Assembly: GCF_900104945.1 (NCBI RefSeq)
Contig: NZ_LT629736.1
Span: 3,437,001 to 3,501,000 of the forward strand
Origin: Halopseudomonas xinjiangensis
Lineage (GTDB): Bacteria; Pseudomonadota; Gammaproteobacteria; Pseudomonadales; Pseudomonadaceae
DNA: 64,000 bases
Reading direction: 5' to 3'
Part shown: positions 4,245 through 12,628 of the stretch, piece after piece
Position numbering within the stretch: position 1 is the stretch's first letter
How the letters are laid out: every line of letters starts with the position of its first letter
The notes under the pieces: generated by a model
Databases searched by the model: none
Told to the model about the DNA's origin: nothing
What the model saw: only the letters and a program-made list of their open reading frames with translations
Made by a program: the position numbers and the translations under genes

Positions 4245-6827
4245 ATGAGCCAGCCACTGGAAGAGTACAACCGCAAGCGTGATTTCGCCGCTACGCCCGA
4301 ACCTTCCGGCGAGGGGAAAAAGCGCCGCGCCAGCAAGCGAAGCGGCGGCGACAAGGCGCTGCAATTCTGCATTCAGAAGCACGACGCCACCCGCCTGCAC
4401 TATGACTTCCGTCTGGAGTTGAACGGTACGCTGAAAAGCTGGGCGATACCCAAGGGGCCGAGTCTGGATCCCAAGTCGCGGCGCCTGGCCGTGCATGTGG
4501 AAGACCATCCGCTGGATTACGCCACCTTCGAAGGACACATCCCCGAAGGGCATTACGGTGCGGGCGATGTCATCGTCTGGGATCGGGGCGTGTGGATTCC
4601 GCAGGGTGATGCCGAAGCGGACTACGCGAAAGGCAAACTGAAGTTCGAGCTGCAGGGTGAGAAGCTTTCCGGCGTATGGAATCTGGTGCGCACCCGCATG
4701 GATGGCAAGAAGGAGCAGTGGTTTCTGATCAAGTCCAACGACGAGGTCGCCCGCCCGGAAAACGAGTTCGACGTCGTCGCCGAGCAACCGCACAGCGTGC
4801 TCAGTGACCGTACCATCGTCGAGAAGAAGCGCGGCAAGAAAGCTGCGGCCAAGGTCGACAAGGAGGCGACTCCCAGGGCGGTGAAGAAAAAACCGGCCAC
4901 GCCGCGCACGACGAAATCTTCGAAACTCACGGGCGCCGAGCCGGCGCCGCTTCCCGAATCGATCAAGCCGGAGCTGGCGACTCTGGTCGAGACGATCCCG
5001 GACGGCGACTGGCGCTACGAAATCAAGTTTGACGGCTACCGAATCATGGCGCGTATCGAAGATGGTGAAGTCCGTCTATTGACGCGCAACGGGCACGACT
5101 GGACGGCGAAGATGCCACGCCAGGCCGAGGCGCTGGCCAGTCTGGCGCTGGAATCCGCCTGGCTCGATGGCGAAATGGTTGTCACCGATGAGAACGATCT
5201 TCCGGATTTTCAGGCGCTGCAGAACGCCTTCGAGGAAGGCAAAAGCGGTGGCATTGTTTACTACCTCTTCGACATGCCCTATCTGAACGGCATGGATCTG
5301 CGCAAGGTGCCGCTGGAGGCGCGCCGCGGCGCGCTGGCCGAGGTGCTACAACGCAGCGAAGACGACATCCTGCGGTTTTCCGAAGACTTCGACGAATCGC
5401 CGGATGCGATGCTCAACAGCGCCTGCCAGATGAAGATGGAAGGTTTGATCGGCAAGCGTTCCGGTAGCACCTACGTATCACGTCGCAGCAATGACTGGAT
5501 CAAGCTCAAATGCAAGCATCGACAGGAGTTCGTCATCGTCGGCTTCAGCGAGCCCAAGGGTAGCCGCAGTGGCTTCGGGGCGTTGCTGCTTGGCCTGCAC
5601 GATACCGACAGTGGCGAACTGCGCTATGCCGGCAAGGTCGGCACCGGTTTCAACGAGGCGACCTTGCGCAGCATTCACAAGCAGCTCAAGCCGCTCGAGA
5701 CGGACAAGCCGGCAGTCGCCAACCCGCCCAAGGGCGCCGATGCCCGAGGCGTGCACTGGCTCAAGCCGAACCTACTGGCCGAAGTGTCGTTCGCCGAGAT
5801 GACCAAGGATGGCAGCGTGCGGCATGCCGTGTTCCAGGGGTTGCGCGACGACAAGCCCGCCAGGGACATCGTCGCCGAAAAGCCTGCCGCAGCGGCTCCA
5901 GCCCGCGGCAAGAGTCAGACTGCGGGCCGCAAGGCGGCCAAGGCCGGGCCGAACCTGCGGATTACGCACCCCGACCGGGTGATCGACGCCAGCAGCTCGA
6001 CCACCAAACTGCAGCTCGCCGAATACTACGCCAGGGTCGCTGGCTGGATGCTGCCGCATCTGGAGAACCGCCCGGTTGCGCTGGTCCGCGCCCCGGAGGG
6101 TCTGTCGGGTGAGCTGTTCTTCCAGAAGAACGCCGATCGTCTGGCCATTCCCGGCATCGAGACGATGGGCAAGGAGTACTCCGGCCAGCCGGTGATGATG
6201 GTCAACAACGCCGAGGCGCTAATCGGTGCAGTGCAGATGGGGACCATCGAATTCCACACCTGGAACGCGACCTCGGCTGACCTGGAGCGGCCGGACCGAT
6301 TCATCCTTGATCTCGACCCCGACCCGGCGCTGCCCTGGAAGGCGATGGTCGAGGCGACCCAGCTCACCCTGGCTGTGCTCGACGAGCTGGGTCTTCAATC
6401 GTTCGCCAAGACCAGTGGCGGCAAGGGGATTCACCTGGTGGTACCGCTTACCCCATCGGCCGGGTGGAGCGAAGTCAAGACCTTCAGCCAGGCGATCGTC
6501 AAGCATATGGCCAAGCTGTTGCCGGACCGCTTTTCCGCCGTCTCCGGCCCGAAAAACCGTGTTGGACGCATATTCATCGACTATCTGCGAAACAGCCAGG
6601 GCGCGACCACTATCGGTCCGTTCGCCGCCCGCACCCGCGAAGGCATGCCGGTCTCGGTGCCGATCTTCCGTGAAGAGATCACCGAGATCCCCAGCGCCAA
6701 CCTGTGGACCGTCCACAACCTGCATGAGCGGCTTGAGGAGCTGGACGAGGACCCCTGGGCCGGTTACGCCGCAGTCGAACAGACCATTACCGCCGAGATG
6801 CGCGAGCGTCTGGGCATGAAACGCTGA
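4245..6827 (+). CDS. ligD: Multifunctional non-homologous end-joining DNA ligase LigD
   Basis: An 860-residue protein with all three LigD modules in the order known from Pseudomonas. The 3'-phosphoesterase domain spans about residues 40-190, with HDATRLHYDFR at 46-56. The ATP-dependent ligase domain spans about 240-545 and its adenylated lysine is Lys261 in EIKFDGYR. The primase-polymerase domain spans about 565-850, with the metal-binding DLDPD at 689-693. Lys/Ala-rich linkers separate the modules. Together with Ku it trims, fills and seals double-strand breaks, mainly in stationary phase. The ATG at 4245 fits the family N-terminus. No ku gene lies in the window. It is followed 19 bases later by a DUF2188 gene. 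Confidence 0.95.
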   Translation: MSQPLEEYNRKRDFAATPEPSGEGKKRRASKRSGGDKALQFCIQKHDATRLHYDFRLELNGTLKSWAIPKGPSLDPKSRRLAVHVEDHPLDYATFEGHIPEGHYGAGDVIVWDRGVWIPQGDAEADYAKGKLKFELQGEKLSGVWNLVRTRMDGKKEQWFLIKSNDEVARPENEFDVVAEQPHSVLSDRTIVEKKRGKKAAAKVDKEATPRAVKKKPATPRTTKSSKLTGAEPAPLPESIKPELATLVETIPDGDWRYEIKFDGYRIMARIEDGEVRLLTRNGHDWTAKMPRQAEALASLALESAWLDGEMVVTDENDLPDFQALQNAFEEGKSGGIVYYLFDMPYLNGMDLRKVPLEARRGALAEVLQRSEDDILRFSEDFDESPDAMLNSACQMKMEGLIGKRSGSTYVSRRSNDWIKLKCKHRQEFVIVGFSEPKGSRSGFGALLLGLHDTDSGELRYAGKVGTGFNEATLRSIHKQLKPLETDKPAVANPPKGADARGVHWLKPNLLAEVSFAEMTKDGSVRHAVFQGLRDDKPARDIVAEKPAAAAPARGKSQTAGRKAAKAGPNLRITHPDRVIDASSSTTKLQLAEYYARVAGWMLPHLENRPVALVRAPEGLSGELFFQKNADRLAIPGIETMGKEYSGQPVMMVNNAEALIGAVQMGTIEFHTWNATSADLERPDRFILDLDPDPALPWKAMVEATQLTLAVLDELGLQSFAKTSGGKGIHLVVPLTPSAGWSEVKTFSQAIVKHMAKLLPDRFSAVSGPKNRVGRIFIDYLRNSQGATTIGPFAARTREGMPVSVPIFREEITEIPSANLWTVHNLHERLEELDEDPWAGYAAVEQTITAEMRERLGMKR

Positions 6828-7144: not shown

Positions 7145-7231
7145 ATGCTTAAGTTTCTTGCCAGCACCGTCGGTATCATTTTCCTCATAGGCCTGTTGGT
7201 CATCATCGGTCTGCTCATGCTGATTTTCTGA
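7145..7231 (+). CDS. Single-span hydrophobic small protein (28 aa)
   Basis: An open frame starting at ATG 7145 with an AGGAG site eight bases upstream. The product is 28 residues: MLKF, then almost only Leu, Ile, Val, Gly and Phe to the end. It would be one membrane helix with a single Lys near the N-terminus, the form of known bacterial membrane peptides. It lies 73 bases after the DUF2188 gene, perhaps in the same operon. Evidence is composition, ribosome site and spacing only; no homologue is claimed. Confidence 0.55.
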   Translation: MLKFLASTVGIIFLIGLLVIIGLLMLIF

Positions 7232-7366
7232 GCCTACCGCAGGGCGGAACGGGTCAGCCGGGACCGGCTGGTTCACGCCGCCCCGCGCGTTTTGCCACCT
7301 GCGTGCTTGATTCCACTTCGCGCACTGCGTATGGTGCTGCGCTTGTCAGCGCCCGGCGCTGATCGA

Positions 7367-7481
7367 CTGGAGTGCGCGGTGCCCGTAACCATGGGCTAAT
7401 TGGAAGACAGTCGAATGCTGTCGCTGCCCCCGCAACGGTAGGGTCGTTTCGAACGACCGAGCCCGATACAGCCCACACTCC
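7367..7481 (+). promoter_or_regulatory. Cobalamin riboswitch aptamer
   Basis: The closing helix pairs GGAGTG (7369-7374) with CACTCC (7476-7481). Inside are the conserved core pieces in the right order: GGTGCCC-GGGCTAATTGGAAGAC, then GCTGCCCCCGCAACGGTA (7423-7440), then a B12-box-like element GAGCCCGATACAGCCCA (7459-7475). An extra perfect hairpin TCAGCGC-CCG-GCGCTGA lies just upstream (7346-7362). About 95 bases separate the aptamer from the CobN-like start and can hold the expression platform. Such RNAs bind adenosyl- or other cobalamins and normally lower expression when B12 is plentiful. Confidence 0.88.
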
Positions 7482-7574
7482 CCAGGTAAGGTTGCGGTGG
7501 GCGACCTCCCGATAGAGACAGCAACGCGCCCGCGTACTGTTTTCGTCGGTAGCCCACGTCATGACGGAGTGGGC

Positions 7575-10500
7575 ATGCGACACCATCGATATCTCTTTCT
7601 GCTGTTTTTCGTCGGCCTGCTCTGGCCGGCTCTGGGTCATGCCCGCATCAATGCCATCGTCTCGCAGTACAGCGCTGCCGAGTTCGCCTCTGCGGCCGGC
7701 ATGTTCGACGCCTCCGGCGCGAAGCTGGCAGTAAGCGCACGCACCCCCGAACAACTGACAGAACTGAGCGATGCCGAGATCGAGCAATGGCTGGCCGAGG
7801 GCACACAGCTGCTGGTGGTCGGTTTGTTCGGTCCGGAGACCGAACGCCTGCAGCCACTACTGCAGCGTTGGCGCGGCAACGATATGTTCATCATGCATAG
7901 CGAGCTGCATCTGGTCGCGCTGTCGCGGAGCTCGGGAAAACCGGTTTTCGACACAACCGAACAGGCACGCCTGCTCGGCGCGCAGAAGCCGGGTGATGAT
8001 CTCGCCGGCTGGGTCAGCCAACTGCAGCAAGCGCATCCACAGCAGGCTGAGTGGATAGAAGCCCGCAGCTACTGGCTGTCTGGAGGCAGCGACAACATTG
8101 CGCGCCTGCTCGGTTGGCTTGCCGCCCGTCAAGATCCGCGAATTGAAGTCGCTGCGCCTGTGCCGCGCCCCGCCTGGCGCTTCTACCAGAATGGCGCTAT
8201 CCGCGAAGCAGCTGAGCTGCAGTGGCAGGAAGGACGGGCAGTGGCCATCATTGACCACAGCCGCGCCGACCGCAGCGGTGATCGGCAGCTCAACGACGAG
8301 TTGTGCAAGGCCCTCGCCGCTCGCAAGCTTGGCTGCGTCAGTCTGTTTGCCGACTGGGGCGAGGGCACAGTGGCTGCGCTGCGCTGGTTGGTGGAGGGCG
8401 AACACCCGCCGCTGGCTGCGGTGGTGGTGTTGCAGGACTTCGTCATGGGTGGCGGCGAAGGGCGCGACCAGGCGACGGCACTGCTGGCGCAACTTGACGT
8501 TCCGGTAATCAAGGGGCTGCGTCTGGATGACCGTGACGAGAACGCCTGGCAGCTGTCCAGTGACGGGATTGGCCGCGACAAGGTGCATTACCAACTGGCC
8601 TTACCTGAACTGCAGGGCAGCAGCCAGCCGCTTGCGCTGGCTACCTGGCAGTCGGCGCGGCTCGATCCGGTCAGCGGCATCCGTTACGGCTTCAGTGTGC
8701 CGGTGGTCGAGCGGGTCGAGTCACTGGCCGATCGCGTTCGTGGTTGGCAGCGTCTGCAAGTGAAAGCGAATGCCGACAAGCGAGTGGCTATCGTCTATTA
8801 CAACCACCCGCCGGGGCGGCATAACATCGGCGCCGACAACCTCGACGTGCCGCAGTCGCTGTTTGAAATGCTCAAGCGCCTGCAGGCCGAGGGCTACGCG
8901 ACCGGACCTCTGCCGGAGTCGCCCGAGGCGCTACTTGAACTCTTGCAGGAGCGCGGGGTAAACCTGCCCGAGCATAACGACGCGTTGGCGCACATGGCCA
9001 AGCATGTGCAACGGGTCAGTGCCGATAGTTACCGCGATTGGTTCGCCGGCCTTCCCCAGGCTTTGCAGGCCGAGATGGTGCAGGGCCCGTTGGGTTACTG
9101 GCATGCCCAGTTGCGCAGGGCGATCGAAGCGTCCGAGTTCGAGCGAGCCGGTCAGGTGCTCGAGCAAGGCAGCAGCGAGCTGCACCATGTGCTCGACGGG
9201 GTCGATCATCCGGCTCGTCAACGGGCGCTGGATCTGCTGGCGCAGCTTGAAGCACTTTATCAGACCGCCTTGCAGCAACCATCGCAGGCCGACTGGCCTG
9301 GCGCTGAAGCGCTGGTCGATGCCCTTGCTGCGACCGGCATCGAAGGGCTGCGCGGGTGGGGTGCGGCCCCCGGACGGGTCATGGTCCATGAAGACGAGCT
9401 GATCCTGCCCGGGCTGCGTTTCGGCAACGTATTCATCGGACCTCAGCCGCCGCGCGGCTGGGAAGTGGACGAAGAACTGTTGCATGCCAATCTGGTGTTT
9501 CCGCCACCCCACCAGTATCTGGCGTTCTATCACTGGCTGCGCGACGACTTCGCCGCCGACGCCATCGTCCATCTCGGCCGGCATTCCACCTATGAATTCC
9601 TGCCGCGCCGGCGTGCGGCGCTGAGCGACGAAGACTATCCGCTACAGATCATTGGCGATGTGCCCAGCATTTATCCGTACATCGTCGACGGGGTCGGCGA
9701 GGGCATCCAGGCCAAGCGCCGCGGTCTGGCGGTCATGGTCGACCATCTGACGCCACCGCTGGTCGCCACGCCGCTGTATGACCATCTGCTTCAGCTTCGC
9801 CAACTGATCGAAAGTTTCGAGACCGGTAGCGGCCAGCACGACGGACCGGCGCGCCGGGCGACCATCGCCCAGATCAAGTCCATCGTCAGCCAGGCCGGGC
9901 TGGAAGAGGAACTGCGGGAATCGATGGCCGAGCCGCTTGCGGCGCGCGGCATCGAGTTCGAGCAGGTCGATGACGATCTTCTGGTGCATGAGGTGGGGCA
10001 CTACCTGACCAACATCCAGGAACGTTTCATGCCGCTGGGGCTGCACGTGTTCGGCAAGCCGTGGACGGACGAGGCCGTCGACACGCTGCTGGCATCGATG
10101 GGCGAGGGCGCCGAAGCGCATCGCCAGGCTCTGGTCGACTCGCCCGCCGCAGAGATGACCGCACTGATTGGCGCGCTGGAAGGACGCTTCGTCCGACCGG
10201 GCAAGGGTAATGATCCGGTGCGCACGCCCGAAGTACTACCCACCGGCCGCAACTTTCACGCGCTGGATAGCAGCCTGCTGCCCAGCCGAGTCGGTTGGGG
10301 GCTTGGGCAGGAGCTGGCCAGCCAGGCGCGCCAGCAACCGGTTGAACCGGGCAGCCGCGAGGCAGTGGTGCTCTGGGCCTCGGACACCGTGCGCGACGAG
10401 GGCGCCATCGTCGCCTTTGGCCTGGATCTCCTGGGTGTAGAGCCGACCTGGAACAGCCGCGGAATCGTCGAAGGTATCCGTCGGGTGCCGCTCGTTGACG

Positions 10501-11870
10501 AGCGGGAGCGCCGGGACGTGTTGTTCACCACCTCGGGGCTGTTTCGTGATCTGTACGCTGACCAGCTGGCGCTGCTCGAGCGCGGGGTCCTGCTGGCGCT
10601 CGACGGTGCCAGCGACACCATCCGCCGTGACTATCCTGCGCTGACCCTTGCTCTGAGCGCTGCGCTTGAGCCGCTTGGCGCCGGCGCGATTGGTGGCGAC
10701 GAAAGCCTTGAGGTCAACCGGGTGGCGGCCAACTGGGTGACGGACGCCGCGCGCCGGCTGGATGCCGGGCTGGGGGCGGACCAGGCTGGCCGGCTGGCGT
10801 CGTTACGGCTATTCGGGGTGGCGCCCGGCAGTTATGGCGCCGGCGTCAATACGCTGGTCGAGCGCTCTGGCAGCTGGCAACAACGCGGCGAGCTGGCCGA
10901 CGCCTATGTCGCGCGGATGGGCCATGCCTACGGTATCGATCAGCAGGGCGCGGCCGTGCAGGGCGTATTCGAGGACAATCTGCGCCAGGTGAACCGCACC
11001 TACCTGGGCCGCTCCAGTAATCTGTATGGTCTGATCGACAACAATGACGCCTTCGATTATCTGGGCGGGCTGAGCCTGGCGGTCGAACAACTGAGTGGCA
11101 CCGCGCCGGACAATATCGTCATGTGGCACAACGACCCGAAGAAGGTTCGCCTGGAGTCGCTGGGAACCGCGCTGACCGCAGAGTTGCGCGGCCGCTTTCT
11201 CAATCCCGCCTGGATCGAGGCGTTGATGCAGCACGACTACGCCGGCGCCCGGACCATGGGCAGCGAGTTTCTCGAATACCTCTGGGGCTGGCAGGTGACC
11301 AATCCGGAGCTGATCCGCGATTCGGCGTGGGAAGAGGTCAAGGCGGTGTACATCGATGACCGCTACGACATCGGCCTGGATGAATTCCTCGAACAGGGCG
11401 CCAACGTCCACGTGAAAACCAACATGCTCGCGGTGATGCTGGTGGCGATCAAAAAAGGATTCTGGGAGGCCGACGAGGCCACCATCGCAGAATTGGGCGA
11501 ACGCTTCGCCGCATTGGTTGCCGAGCATGGTCTGCCCGGGAGCGGTCACACGCGTCCGGACCACCCTATGCTCGACTGGCTGGAGCCAAGGCTGTCGGAT
11601 GAGCTGCGTTCCGGCCTGCAGGACCGGCGACAGGCAGCGCTGCAACCCGTGGAGGCTGAATCTTCGCCGAACACCATCAGTGAAGTGACGCTGGAAGAGC
11701 AGGAGCCAGGAGAGCAGCGGGACCAGCCTTCATCTGATGGCGCAGCCCAGGATGGTGAGAGCGAGGCCGACTCGGCATCGCCGGTACCTGTATTGATCGG
11801 CCTGGCTATTGTGCTTCTGCTGCTGGCATTCGGCATCTGGCGCGGCCGCGGTCGCGCACTGGAGAGGTAA
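7575..11870 (+). CDS. Exported, membrane-anchored CobN-like chelatase family protein
   Basis: A 1431-residue member of the CobN/BchH large chelatase family. Unlike cytosolic CobN it starts with a clear signal peptide (hydrophobic core residues 7-20, likely cleavage after GHA at 23). It ends with an acidic, Ser/Glu-rich linker (about 1355-1402), one transmembrane helix (about 1404-1423) and a basic RGRGR tail. Its bulk should therefore lie in the periplasm. The CobN core is recognisable by HLGRHSTYEFLPRR at 666-679 and AKRR...DHLTPPL at 713-728; canonical CobN reads GTHG where this has GRHS. The start ATG at 7575 is preferred over an upstream GTG because it gives the signal peptide. The gene lies under a cobalamin riboswitch and four bases before an ExbB-like gene. 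I infer work on a corrinoid or other tetrapyrrole, not classical cobalt insertion. Confidence 0.85.
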   Translation: MRHHRYLFLLFFVGLLWPALGHARINAIVSQYSAAEFASAAGMFDASGAKLAVSARTPEQLTELSDAEIEQWLAEGTQLLVVGLFGPETERLQPLLQRWRGNDMFIMHSELHLVALSRSSGKPVFDTTEQARLLGAQKPGDDLAGWVSQLQQAHPQQAEWIEARSYWLSGGSDNIARLLGWLAARQDPRIEVAAPVPRPAWRFYQNGAIREAAELQWQEGRAVAIIDHSRADRSGDRQLNDELCKALAARKLGCVSLFADWGEGTVAALRWLVEGEHPPLAAVVVLQDFVMGGGEGRDQATALLAQLDVPVIKGLRLDDRDENAWQLSSDGIGRDKVHYQLALPELQGSSQPLALATWQSARLDPVSGIRYGFSVPVVERVESLADRVRGWQRLQVKANADKRVAIVYYNHPPGRHNIGADNLDVPQSLFEMLKRLQAEGYATGPLPESPEALLELLQERGVNLPEHNDALAHMAKHVQRVSADSYRDWFAGLPQALQAEMVQGPLGYWHAQLRRAIEASEFERAGQVLEQGSSELHHVLDGVDHPARQRALDLLAQLEALYQTALQQPSQADWPGAEALVDALAATGIEGLRGWGAAPGRVMVHEDELILPGLRFGNVFIGPQPPRGWEVDEELLHANLVFPPPHQYLAFYHWLRDDFAADAIVHLGRHSTYEFLPRRRAALSDEDYPLQIIGDVPSIYPYIVDGVGEGIQAKRRGLAVMVDHLTPPLVATPLYDHLLQLRQLIESFETGSGQHDGPARRATIAQIKSIVSQAGLEEELRESMAEPLAARGIEFEQVDDDLLVHEVGHYLTNIQERFMPLGLHVFGKPWTDEAVDTLLASMGEGAEAHRQALVDSPAAEMTALIGALEGRFVRPGKGNDPVRTPEVLPTGRNFHALDSSLLPSRVGWGLGQELASQARQQPVEPGSREAVVLWASDTVRDEGAIVAFGLDLLGVEPTWNSRGIVEGIRRVPLVDERERRDVLFTTSGLFRDLYADQLALLERGVLLALDGASDTIRRDYPALTLALSAALEPLGAGAIGGDESLEVNRVAANWVTDAARRLDAGLGADQAGRLASLRLFGVAPGSYGAGVNTLVERSGSWQQRGELADAYVARMGHAYGIDQQGAAVQGVFEDNLRQVNRTYLGRSSNLYGLIDNNDAFDYLGGLSLAVEQLSGTAPDNIVMWHNDPKKVRLESLGTALTAELRGRFLNPAWIEALMQHDYAGARTMGSEFLEYLWGWQVTNPELIRDSAWEEVKAVYIDDRYDIGLDEFLEQGANVHVKTNMLAVMLVAIKKGFWEADEATIAELGERFAALVAEHGLPGSGHTRPDHPMLDWLEPRLSDELRSGLQDRRQAALQPVEAESSPNTISEVTLEEQEPGEQRDQPSSDGAAQDGESEADSASPVPVLIGLAIVLLLLAFGIWRGRGRALER

Positions 11871-11874
11871 GGAT

Positions 11875-12351
11875 ATGTTCGATAGTCAGGTGTTCGCCTG
11901 GTTGCATCTGCTCGTCGGCTGGCTGCTCAAGCCGGTCACCTGGGGTCTGTTCGGCCTGTTGATGATCGCTGTGATCGATGTCGGTATCGCCATAGGCGAG
12001 CGCTTTGGCGGCCTGGCGCGCTGGCGCCAGCAGCCCTTGACAACGGTGGAACGACTGGCTCGTCGACGGCTCGACCGCGCAGACCTGATCGCCCGTGTCG
12101 GGCCCATGCTAGGTCTGATGGGCACGCTGATTCCCCTCGGGCCCGGGCTGGCGGCGCTTGGCGAGGGCAATGTGCAGATTCTCAGCGTGGCCATGCGCGT
12201 GGCCTTCGATACCACGGTGCTGGGCCTGCTCGCGGGCGTGCTGGGCTTTGCCCTGGCGCGCTTGCGTCGCCGTTGGTATGACGACCTGCTCGACGACCTG
12301 GAAGCGACCATGAAACAGGAGCGGGGCGATGAGCCGTCGCTGGCGCTCTAG
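11875..12351 (+). CDS. MotA/TolQ/ExbB-type proton channel protein
   Basis: A 158-residue protein with three predicted membrane helices (about 21-40, 74-94 and 107-128). The second and third span the ExbB/TolQ signature, with GPMLGLMGTLIPLG and AFDTTVLGLLAGVLG. It is shorter than ExbB and lacks most of the cytoplasmic domain. ExbB/TolQ/MotA proteins form pentameric rings that conduct protons together with a single-span partner. The start ATG at 11875 has an AGGTAAGGAT site and sits four bases after the CobN-like gene. The next gene overlaps its end by 23 bases, so the three are translationally linked. A partner role with the CobN-like protein is inferred from the operon. Confidence 0.85.
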   Translation: MFDSQVFAWLHLLVGWLLKPVTWGLFGLLMIAVIDVGIAIGERFGGLARWRQQPLTTVERLARRRLDRADLIARVGPMLGLMGTLIPLGPGLAALGEGNVQILSVAMRVAFDTTVLGLLAGVLGFALARLRRRWYDDLLDDLEATMKQERGDEPSLAL

Positions 12352-12628
12352 TCGCTTCGCCTCCGGCGAGGACGACCCGCTCGGGCCGTTGGCCAACATG
12401 GTCGACGTCGTGCTGGTGTTTGCCTGCGGGCTGATCGCCGCGCTGGTCGCACAAACCGATCTGCTCACCAACCTCGAGCAGGCCGGCCAGCCGGTTCCGC
12501 TGGAGCGTGGACGCGAACTGCCGCAGATCCCGGATACCCTGAGTAGCGAGCGTGGGCAGGGCTTGAAGAGTCTCGGTCAAGTCTATCGCGATCCAGAAAC
12601 CGGCAAGCTGATCCTCATCGGCGACTAA
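12329..12628 (+). CDS. DUF2149 protein, ExbD/TolR-like single-span subunit
   Basis: A 99-residue protein matching DUF2149. It has a short basic cytosolic N-terminus, one membrane helix (about 23-42) and a periplasmic tail of about 55 residues. The helix opens with NMVDVVLVF and places an acidic residue, Asp26, at its start. This is the same form and position as the essential proton-carrying Asp of ExbD and TolR (PLVDVMLVL type). The gene overlaps the ExbB-like gene by 23 bases. The DUF assignment is firm; the equivalence to ExbD is my reading of the sequence and topology. Confidence 0.82.
   Translation: MSRRWRSSRFASGEDDPLGPLANMVDVVLVFACGLIAALVAQTDLLTNLEQAGQPVPLERGRELPQIPDTLSSERGQGLKSLGQVYRDPETGKLILIGD

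Follow-up and report, generated by a model that had tools for sequence, protein, structure and literature searches.

A vitamin B12-controlled trio of genes in Halopseudomonas xinjiangensis encodes an ExbB-like channel protein, a DUF2149 protein and a CobN-family protein, belonging to the family of enzymes that insert metals into ring pigments, which is predicted to sit outside the inner membrane. Gene evidence suggests, from sequence alone, that this putative complex places cobalt into scavenged or home-made B12 precursors and that it would be powered by proton flow instead of ATP. The core of the locus resembles the hmu haem-iron operon (HmuS/ExbB/DUF2149) and so the general kind is known, while this corrinoid branch has not been characterised. 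The observation made in an earlier note on this DNA, of a cobalamin riboswitch followed by these three genes, was confirmed.

Sequence features of the locus

The window analysed was a stretch of 64,000 nucleotides and all features described here lie on its forward strand. A covariance model search identified a cobalamin riboswitch aptamer (RF00174) at 7360-7491, with 42.3 bits against a gathering score of 31.5 (E 2.7e-07), which was the only match at gathering threshold in the 64 kb and which gave the same score in a whole-genome search. ViennaRNA folds of 7360-7600, 7440-7600 and 7485-7600 all formed a hairpin (GCCCAC...GTGGGC) at 7552-7574 which holds the GGAG ribosome site and abuts ATG 7575. 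This hairpin is a possible expression platform, although its regulatory role is inferred.

The CobN-family open reading frame spans 7497-11870 and is open from GTG 7497, but from sequence the likelier start is ATG 7575, with GGAG at 7566-7569, giving a protein of about 1431 aa (7575-11870; residue numbers here count from 7497). The protein matched PF02514 with 844 bits, but scored below every NCBIfam CobN/BchH equivalog cut-off listed; the best-scoring of the nine models gave 599.6 bits against a cut-off of 1619. A signal-peptide-like N-terminus was found at 7575-7643, with the cleavage site judged by eye, and a predicted C-terminal transmembrane anchor at 11784-11837, an 18-residue stretch of mean hydropathy 2.94 followed by a basic tail. 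The predicted periplasmic placement rests on hydropathy only. The ExbB/TolQ-like protein (11875-12351, 158 aa) matched PF01618 with 36.2 bits (cut-off 22.9). Its structural model (pLDDT 91.5) is shorter than ExbB and has three helices, and the nearest solved folds by Foldseek were TolQ and ExbB, with a best E of 0.016, probabilities of 0.98-1.00 for the first rows and no match at 0.001. The DUF2149 protein (12329-12628, 99 aa) matched PF09919 with 40.8 bits (cut-off 27.1) and carries a putative single ExbD-like helix with Asp26. Its profile match to an ExbD peptide had an E of only 5.7, so that it is not detectably ExbD by sequence, and its structural model (pLDDT 70.4, pTM 0.31) was too poor to search with.

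In the host genome (3.54 Mb, one contig) this was the only PF02514 protein. The best ChlI-like match was 25 bits, compared with 227-409 bits in ten genomes with canonical CobN, and no match to the CobS motor was found. Adjacent open reading frames that were scanned encode LigD upstream and sugar-nucleotide genes downstream, with no hmu-type neighbours.

Distribution, phylogeny and conserved residues

Of 183 related loci found, 80 were kept. All 80 carried the channel gene and 79 carried DUF2149; in the remaining locus (L041) the contig ends about 300 bases after the ExbB-like gene. Linkage of homologues to the two small subunits, which the earlier note had set as a test of its reading, was observed in 79 of 80 relatives, more than would be expected by chance. 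At least 64 of the 80 loci have an upstream cobalamin riboswitch or its core motif. BtuB-like genes were present in 36 of 80 loci, BtuF-like genes in 14 and B12 salvage genes alongside in 31. A search of a phage collection returned two distant matches.

The CobN-like proteins were aligned using 78 of the 80 loci (L030 and L031 were dropped as split ORFs), five extra sequences and the window protein, giving 84 trio proteins. In a tree which used 39 of these 84, they formed their own clade (SH-aLRT 100), and an HmuS-like relative on a long branch (L102) fell outside it; the solved HmuS (PDB 9D26) was not itself in this tree. By a simple hydropathy rule an N-terminal hydrophobic stretch over threshold was found in 83 of 84 trio proteins. 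At the C-terminus 52 of the 84 reached a hydropathy of 2.0, 31 lay at 1.04-1.99 and one (L083) had no such stretch, while seven canonical CobN proteins and one ChlH-type row reached 0.32 at most. This ChlH-type row (L121) was initially labelled as canonical CobN, but its HFGTHG motif makes it ChlH-type.

His696 (9582-9584), within the motif HLGRHST, aligns with HmuS His538 and was conserved in 84 of 84 trio proteins, 8 of 8 proteins of the receptor-linked branch and 8 of 8 rows labelled canonical. The HmuS H538A variant loses activity (PMC12583661). The motif DNND at residues 1181-1184 (11037-11048) was present in 84 of 84 trio proteins, and its Asp1184 aligns with His1209, the proposed metal ligand of HmuS, which lies in the motif LSLDHxxEFMGG. 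Asp is also found at this position in 7 of 7 canonical CobN proteins and in 7 of 8 receptor-linked proteins, and so this residue does not by itself mark a corrin enzyme. Positions 695 (basic) and 1181 (Asp) group 84 of 84 trio proteins with 7 of 7 canonical CobN proteins, in contrast to T and S/T, respectively, in receptor-linked, HmuS- and ChlH-type proteins. Between two aligned blocks HmuS has 278 residues, where its Met-rich insertion lies, and the window protein has 68, leaving no room for this insertion. In the ExbB-like protein Thr84 and Thr114 were conserved in 86 of 86 sequences, and Asp26 of DUF2149 was conserved in 85 of 85 and in 7 of 7 of the receptor-linked branch.

Cobalamin pathway gene content

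The host showed no corrin-ring synthesis, with no CbiC and only three TP-methylases, but keeps the genes that follow (hydrogeno)byrinic acid. CobB (452 bits, cut-off 254), CobQ, CobO, CbiB, CobU, CobT and CobS were found, together with BluB- and BtuM-like genes. A canonical cobaltochelatase in the host was rejected, since there was neither a sign of ring synthesis nor an ATPase motor match.

A set of 38 genomes was examined, comprising 33 CbiC-positive genomes from a class sample of 276 and 5 chosen as CbiC-positive trio carriers. Of these, 8 had CobG, the marker of the oxygen-dependent, late-cobalt route, above the curated cut-off. Three of the 8 have canonical CobN with a ChlI or CobS motor (G007, an Azotobacter which also has the trio, G297 and G309). 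In the other five (G127, G154 and G259 from the sample; G043 and G049 chosen) the only PF02514 protein is that of the trio, ChlI-like scores are at most 31 bits, CobS scores are at most 91 bits (true ones 561-568) and CbiX is absent. These five genomes are perhaps two lineages. In G127, G154 and G259 the trio lies in the cob operon, where the same-strand run is CobN-like, ExbB, DUF2149, (BluB), CobO, CobB, CbiD, ABC ATPase, (ABC-2 permease), CobG, then CobH to CobL. CobG and CobH of loci L104 and L094, and CobG and CobI of locus L105, pass curated cut-offs for metal-free precorrin enzymes. These clusters carry CbiD, whose name comes from the cobalt-first pathway, although CbiD also occurs in oxygen-type Pseudomonas clusters.

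Several observations on other carriers count against the insertion reading. Of 50 carrier genomes examined (of 80), 45 have no CbiC/CobH, so that under an insertion model most carriers would need an outside metal-free corrin. We considered whether trio genomes avoid de novo synthesis, but CbiC was found in only 33 of 276 genomes of the class in any case, so this is near background and was dropped as an argument. A rough count, with the trio in 3 of 5 CobG-positive genomes of the sample against 12 possible carriers in 276 (P 0.0006), ignores kinship and includes carriers not checked one by one, one of them below the DUF2149 cut-off, and it is given no weight here. The Azotobacter genome has both canonical CobN and the trio, while Spongiibacter (G033) and Duganella (G047) have the trio plus CbiX, so there it is not needed for their own synthesis; two Zoogloea loci have a CbiX-type cluster beside the trio. 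A copy on a Marinobacter plasmid (L127) keeps the body and a B12 operon but lacks the anchor, ExbB and DUF2149, which indicates either decay or that the motor is dispensable.

Comparison with related systems

The closest system is HmuS/HmuU/HmuV of Bacteroidota hmu operons, in which a periplasmic CobN-family body with a membrane anchor and the shared superfamily His (His538) is encoded with ExbB-like and DUF2149 genes. The CobN/ExbB/DUF2149 set has been described in the hmu operons of P. gingivalis and P. intermedia (PMC10434189), HmuU and HmuV have been compared with ExbB and ExbD, and a B12-riboswitch hmu-like operon was noted in 2023 (PMC10100974). HmuS of B. thetaiotaomicron (PDB 9D26) was solved and assayed in 2025 (PMC12583661). 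Its head domain has the haem ligands Met79 and His254. It differs from the present protein in its haem substrate, His1209 and Met-rich insertion, and in its HmuY/HmuR/HmuT partners and iron response in place of a B12 riboswitch. Compared with the CobN-CobS-CobT cobaltochelatase (or CobN with a ChlI-type ATPase), the window protein shares PF02514, the basic residue at 695, Asp1181 and Asp1184, and in five genomes its relatives share the context of late-cobalt B12 synthesis. It is, however, predicted to be secreted and anchored, it falls below all listed CobN equivalog cut-offs, and a proton-channel pair is present where no strong AAA+ motor match was found in the genome.

A CobN-like "third type", BtuS, predicted to be periplasmic and membrane-anchored and proposed for metalloporphyrin salvage, is named by Rocha et al. 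(PMC6460266, citing Rodionov 2003); members studied act in haem-iron use in B. fragilis. The cobN-exbB-exbD-tonB cluster of a Trichlorobacter (Geobacter) lovleyi plasmid likewise has a CobN-like gene with ExbB and DUF2149 next to cobalamin genes, and CobS/CobT were not found by its authors (PMC3403914). Its protein is 31% identical over 78% of the query, the region has an extra DUF2162 and a full ExbB/ExbD/TonB set, and the organism is not known to be an oxygen-pathway producer. With the ExbB/ExbD and TolQ/TolR motors the small subunits share the MotA_ExbB family, a conserved Thr pair and a putative helix with an invariant Asp like that of ExbD, but here the effector is a chelatase-family protein whose anchor is C-terminal, not N-terminal. 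In literature searches of an open library no proton-driven or periplasmic cobaltochelatase was seen among the best-ranked titles.

Interpretation and alternative functions

The best reading, which we regard as about as likely as not, is a class I (CobN/ChlH-type) metal chelatase moved to the periplasmic face of the inner membrane and dedicated to corrinoids. The gene evidence favours metal insertion over removal, and this reading is supported by the five CobG-positive genomes whose only CobN-family protein is that of the trio, the place of the trio in the cob operon of three of them, the late pathway genes kept by the host, motif positions 695 and 1181, the upstream riboswitches, and the invariant Thr84, Thr114 and Asp26. 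In this view the AAA+ ATPase of ordinary CobN-CobS-CobT is replaced by an ExbB/DUF2149 proton-driven motor that would pull on the C-terminal anchor and linker. In this salvager it would metalate scavenged precursor before import (by BtuB, then BtuF or the BtuM-like protein), and CobO, CobB, CobQ, CbiB, CobD, CobU, CobT and CobS would finish B12, while in a few producers it would be the late cobaltochelatase of the oxygen-dependent pathway. The gene set, riboswitches, topology signals, conserved motor-like residues and pathway gene content are shown by sequence, whereas proton coupling, the direction of the metal reaction, including any insertion of Co(II) into hydrogenobyrinate a,c-diamide as by canonical CobN, and the substrate are inferred. 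A more far-reaching version, which remains tentative and which we consider somewhat less likely than not, is that this machine has replaced the ATP-driven one outright. Producers would export a metal-free corrin, perhaps through the ABC-2 exporter inside the operon, metalate it in the periplasm and re-import it, and salvagers such as this host would use the same machine to turn metal-free corrins released by others into B12. Periplasmic metalation in a producer does require such export and re-import, and the exporter in these operons would fit, although this role is conjectural.

The interpretation in the earlier note, that proton flow through the small subunits drives a large periplasmic protein for capture, remodelling or metal removal from a corrinoid, was partly supported. 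Its predicted periplasmic placement, the lack of a CobS-type motor, an ExbB/ExbD-like pair with invariant residues, corrinoid regulation and the parallel it drew with hmu loci were supported, while the proton coupling remains inference. Metal removal was less well supported, and its description of the class as little-described is half right given the published work on HmuS and on the hmu-like operon.

A role restricted to corrinoid uptake, in which the CobN-like protein only captures and hands over corrinoids and the ExbB/DUF2149 pair powers release or transfer in a TonB-like manner without metal chemistry, is possible but less likely. The BtuB- and BtuF-like genes, B12 riboswitch control and the transport role proposed by the T. 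lovleyi authors (PMC3403914) are consistent with it. In contrast, the metal-site residues His696 and Asp1184 are invariant, the trio lies in late-cobalt cob operons of genomes that have no other CobN-family protein, and HmuS, with the same partner genes, is an enzyme (PMC12583661). A corrinoid dechelatase or metal exchanger, removing cobalt or wrong metals (Zn, Cu, Ni) from scavenged corrinoids, is unlikely. Although HmuS belongs to the same superfamily, has the same partners and runs in the removal direction (PMC12583661), its His1209 is replaced by Asp in the trio and its Met-rich region has no counterpart here. Moreover, cobalt corrins resist removal of cobalt without destruction of the ligand (PMC6771967), the operon is controlled by B12 rather than by a metal, a host without corrin-ring synthesis gains no B12 from freed cobalt, and the genomes where the trio is the only CobN-family protein carry a pathway that needs cobalt insertion. 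Removal of wrong metals is not excluded. Haem or porphyrin iron acquisition with incidental B12 control, suggested by the gene trio shared with hmu operons (PMC10434189), is very unlikely in view of the separate clade, the CobN-like motif residues, the lack of hmu-type neighbours among the ORFs scanned, the upstream riboswitch or core motif in at least 64 of 80 loci and the B12 salvage genes alongside in 31.

If the insertion reading is right, it answers how some oxygen-pathway B12 producers insert cobalt without canonical CobN or its ATPase, shows that an Exb-type motor can drive a chelatase, and predicts an unrecognised trade in metal-free corrins between bacteria. It would also mean that genomes scored as lacking a complete cobaltochelatase may be complete.

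Architecture of the operon

The cobalamin riboswitch RF00174 at 7360-7491 was followed by a CobN-family open reading frame (7497-11870; the likelier start is ATG 7575, which lies behind GGAG), an ExbB-like gene (11875-12351) and a DUF2149 gene (12329-12628). While the CobN-like protein scored 844 bits to PF02514, it fell under every listed NCBIfam CobN or BchH equivalog cut-off. The protein has a signal-peptide-like start and a C-terminal hydrophobic anchor with a basic tail, as expected for a periplasmic body. When 84 trio proteins were examined, the start passed a simple hydropathy rule in 83, while for the anchor 52 proteins reached a value of 2.0, 31 lay at 1.04-1.99 and one (from locus L083) had none. 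In the 63 trio proteins where the end of the body could be recognized by pattern, the stretch between it and the last 30 residues had a median length of 71 (8 to 111) and was composed mostly of P/Q/E/S/T/D/N/A/G. A hairpin at 7552-7574 holds the ribosome site directly before ATG 7575, and translational control is therefore plausible, although this is an inference.

With respect to the surroundings of the operon, the adjacent ORFs scanned were a LigD-type NHEJ ligase gene just upstream (4245-6827; NCBIfam PRK05972, 1250 bits, nearly full length) and sugar-nucleotide genes downstream, and the operon appears to stand alone. A small ORF at 7145-7231, just upstream of the riboswitch, encodes a 28-residue, almost wholly hydrophobic peptide.

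Conservation of the gene set and of its regulation

A genome scan found 183 relatives, of which 80 were kept for analysis. ExbB-like neighbors were found in 80 of 80 and DUF2149 in 79 of 80, the exception being at a contig end. A second ExbB-like/DUF2149-like pair was observed about 7 kb upstream of the Zoogloea trio in two loci (L072:477-1291 and L078:310-1125). A riboswitch core motif with at most one mismatch was located on the same strand within 6 kb upstream in 52 of 80 loci, 40 of them near the gene start. Of the other 28, Rfam was run on 19 and added 12, giving at least 64 of 80, while 7 were scanned without an upstream same-strand match and 9 were not scanned. The motif occurred 60 times on the strand of the gene and 11 times on the other, and 40 shuffled loci gave none. 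B12 salvage genes lay within 8 kb in 31 of 80 loci and BtuB-like genes in 36.

Thr84 and Thr114 of the ExbB-like protein were invariant in 86 of 86 sequences, and Asp26 of DUF2149 in 85 of 85. Thr84 and Asp26 also held in a second branch of relatives, in 7 of 7 each, where position 114 is Val. These residues match the Thr and Asp of ExbB/ExbD. A Foldseek search placed the model of the ExbB-like protein with TolQ and ExbB, with an E value of 0.016 at best and no match at 0.001. The assignment of DUF2149 as an ExbD is not proven, as one of two profile hints was an ExbD peptide at E 5.7 and the structural model was weak.

Relationship to CobN, HmuS and other CobN-like proteins

A tree of 56 proteins, built by a quick method, gave three groups: the present trio (39 rows, support 100, stem 2.09), canonical CobN together with one ChlH-type row (8), and a second branch linked to TonB-dependent receptors (8). 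In this second branch 7 of 8 also have ExbB and DUF2149 (loci L097, L098, L099, L100, L106, L107 and L108, with L101 lacking both); its members lie mostly next to TonB-dependent receptors and carry porphyrin-type motif residues, and it is perhaps a metal-harvesting relative, for which the Zur-regulated PA1922-PA1925 may be compared.

The motifs HxGRHST and DNND were present in 84 of 84 trio proteins. At the two distinguishing positions canonical CobN had K and D (7 of 7) and the receptor-linked branch had T and S/T (8 of 8), while HmuS and ChlH had T at the first position. The residue corresponding to HmuS His1209 was Asp in the trio, in 7 of 7 canonical CobN and in 7 of 8 members of the receptor-linked branch. 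By residues the trio therefore looks CobN-type and not HmuS-type, though by partners it looks like HmuS/HmuU/HmuV.

Two plasmid-borne genes showed other arrangements. In Marinobacter sp. M3C a plasmid copy (15001-19203 of locus L127), 49% identical over 93%, sits in a B12 operon with a riboswitch at 8757-8966; this trio-type CobN-like gene lacks the C-terminal anchor, ExbB and DUF2149 and has slightly altered motifs, and group II intron RNA and an IS1595 gene lie in the same 34 kb. On a Trichlorobacter lovleyi plasmid (6852-14128 of locus L128) one CobN-like gene is flanked by two motor sets, with DUF2162/ExbB/DUF2149 before it and ExbB/ExbD/TonB after it.

Cobalamin genes of the host

The host genome has one PF02514 protein, no CbiC, three TP-methylases (475, 259 and 315 aa frames, which we read as CysG-, SUMT- and RsmI-like) and three cobalamin riboswitches. 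One riboswitch precedes a BtuB-like gene (locus L090), one precedes a run of BtuB, BtuM-like, CobO, CobB, BluB-like, BtuF, CbiB, CobD-like, CobQ, CobU, CobT, CobC-like and CobS, and the third is that of the present operon. The BtuM-like protein matched PDB chain 8c7p, annotated as a cobalamin ABC transporter, at E 4.6e-47. CobB and CobQ would be idle if only finished corrinoids were salvaged, and from pathway knowledge we infer that they imply entry at cobyrinic or hydrogenobyrinic acid. With the trio as the putative chelatase, the path from metal-free hydrogenobyrinic acid to B12 would be nearly complete, leaving aside the cobalt reductase (CobR) step.

Cobalt insertion in CobG-type producers

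Producers of the CobG type insert cobalt late and need a CobN (PMC7689651). To determine whether the trio could fill this role, genomes of the class to which the host belongs were searched, and of 276 genomes, 33 had CbiC/CobH and 19 had DUF2149 of either branch. One very small genome of this class (G066, 400 kb) keeps a full-length CobN-family protein and CbiC. The 33 genomes plus five trio carriers chosen because they have CbiC, 38 in total, were then examined. CobG above cut-off was found in eight (5 of the 33 and 3 of the 5 chosen), and all eight have a CobN-family protein. Three of these genomes (G007, G297 and G309) have canonical CobN with a ChlI-like motor, G309 also having CobS, whereas five (G127, G154, G259, G043 and G049) have only the trio; these five may represent only two lineages. 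The 17 of 38 without any CobN-family protein have no CobG above cut-off. Several genomes, such as G074 and G102, have canonical CobN without a CobG above cut-off, so CobG is not the only mark of late insertion.

Across 19 genomes the ChlI-like score split cleanly, with 227-409 bits in ten genomes with canonical CobN and at most 33 in the other nine. CobS-type scores in the trio-only genomes reached 91 bits at most, against 561-568 for real ones. CbiX was absent from all five trio-only genomes and present in 6 of the 13 genomes searched. The trio proteins of these five genomes have signal-peptide-like starts and lie inside the trio clade.

In G127, G154 and G259 (loci L103, L104 and L105, respectively) the trio is followed by a same-strand cob run that includes CobO, CobB, CbiD, an ABC ATPase and CobG. 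CobH was labelled in L104 and L105, and its G127 counterpart comes from the whole-genome match. The ABC ATPase, together with an ABC-2 type permease confirmed by Pfam in L104 and L105 (only the ATPase was labelled in L103), lies between CbiD and CobG inside the cob operon (L103:9458-10381, L104:6905-8865, L105:8788-10757) and is a possible corrin exporter. CobG and CobH of L104 and of locus L094, and CobG and CobI of L105, passed curated cut-offs for the metal-free enzymes. In G154 and G259 a riboswitch sits directly before the CobN-like gene, while in G127 it sits before a BtuB-like gene upstream. In the Zhongshania genomes G043 and G049 the cob cluster and the trio lie on different contigs.

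Discussion

Related systems have been described. HmuS is a haem dechelatase with a solved structure (PMC12583661), and BtuS genes matter for haem iron in B. fragilis (PMC6460266), in which a B12-riboswitch hmu-like operon has also been noted (PMC10100974). A Zur-regulated TonB receptor/cobN/exbD operon is known in P. aeruginosa (PMC4542158). A cobN-exbB-exbD-tonB cluster without CobST was noted on a Geobacter plasmid and was read as transport (PMC3403914). In the part of the literature searched, we saw no paper that proposes cobalt insertion by a complex of this type.

Ordinary class I chelatases spend ATP, through AAA+ rings, on metal insertion (PMC7689651). There is no ATP in the periplasm, and an Exb-type motor pulling on the anchored tail would be a sensible substitute. 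With respect to the direction of the reaction, cobalt removal is chemically hard (PMC6771967), and free cobalt would not give this host B12, while E. coli excretes hydrogenobyric acid (PMC6771967), so a substrate can exist. Some results speak against this view: Azotobacter has both canonical CobN and the trio, Spongiibacter and Duganella carry the trio with CbiX, two Zoogloea loci have CbiX-type clusters next to it, the Marinobacter plasmid copy lacks the anchor, ExbB and DUF2149, and the trio-only clusters use CbiD. While the gene set, its riboswitches, the conserved residues and the pathway gene content rest on the sequence analysis, the periplasmic placement is predicted, and the motor mechanism, the direction of the reaction and the metal chemistry itself remain inference. 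On present evidence the trio differs from HmuS in its CobN-type residues and from canonical CobN in its predicted anchored periplasmic body and its ExbB/DUF2149 partners, and a bolder reading, in which a proton-driven periplasmic complex of this kind would have replaced the ATP-driven CobN machine in cobalt insertion, remains possible.
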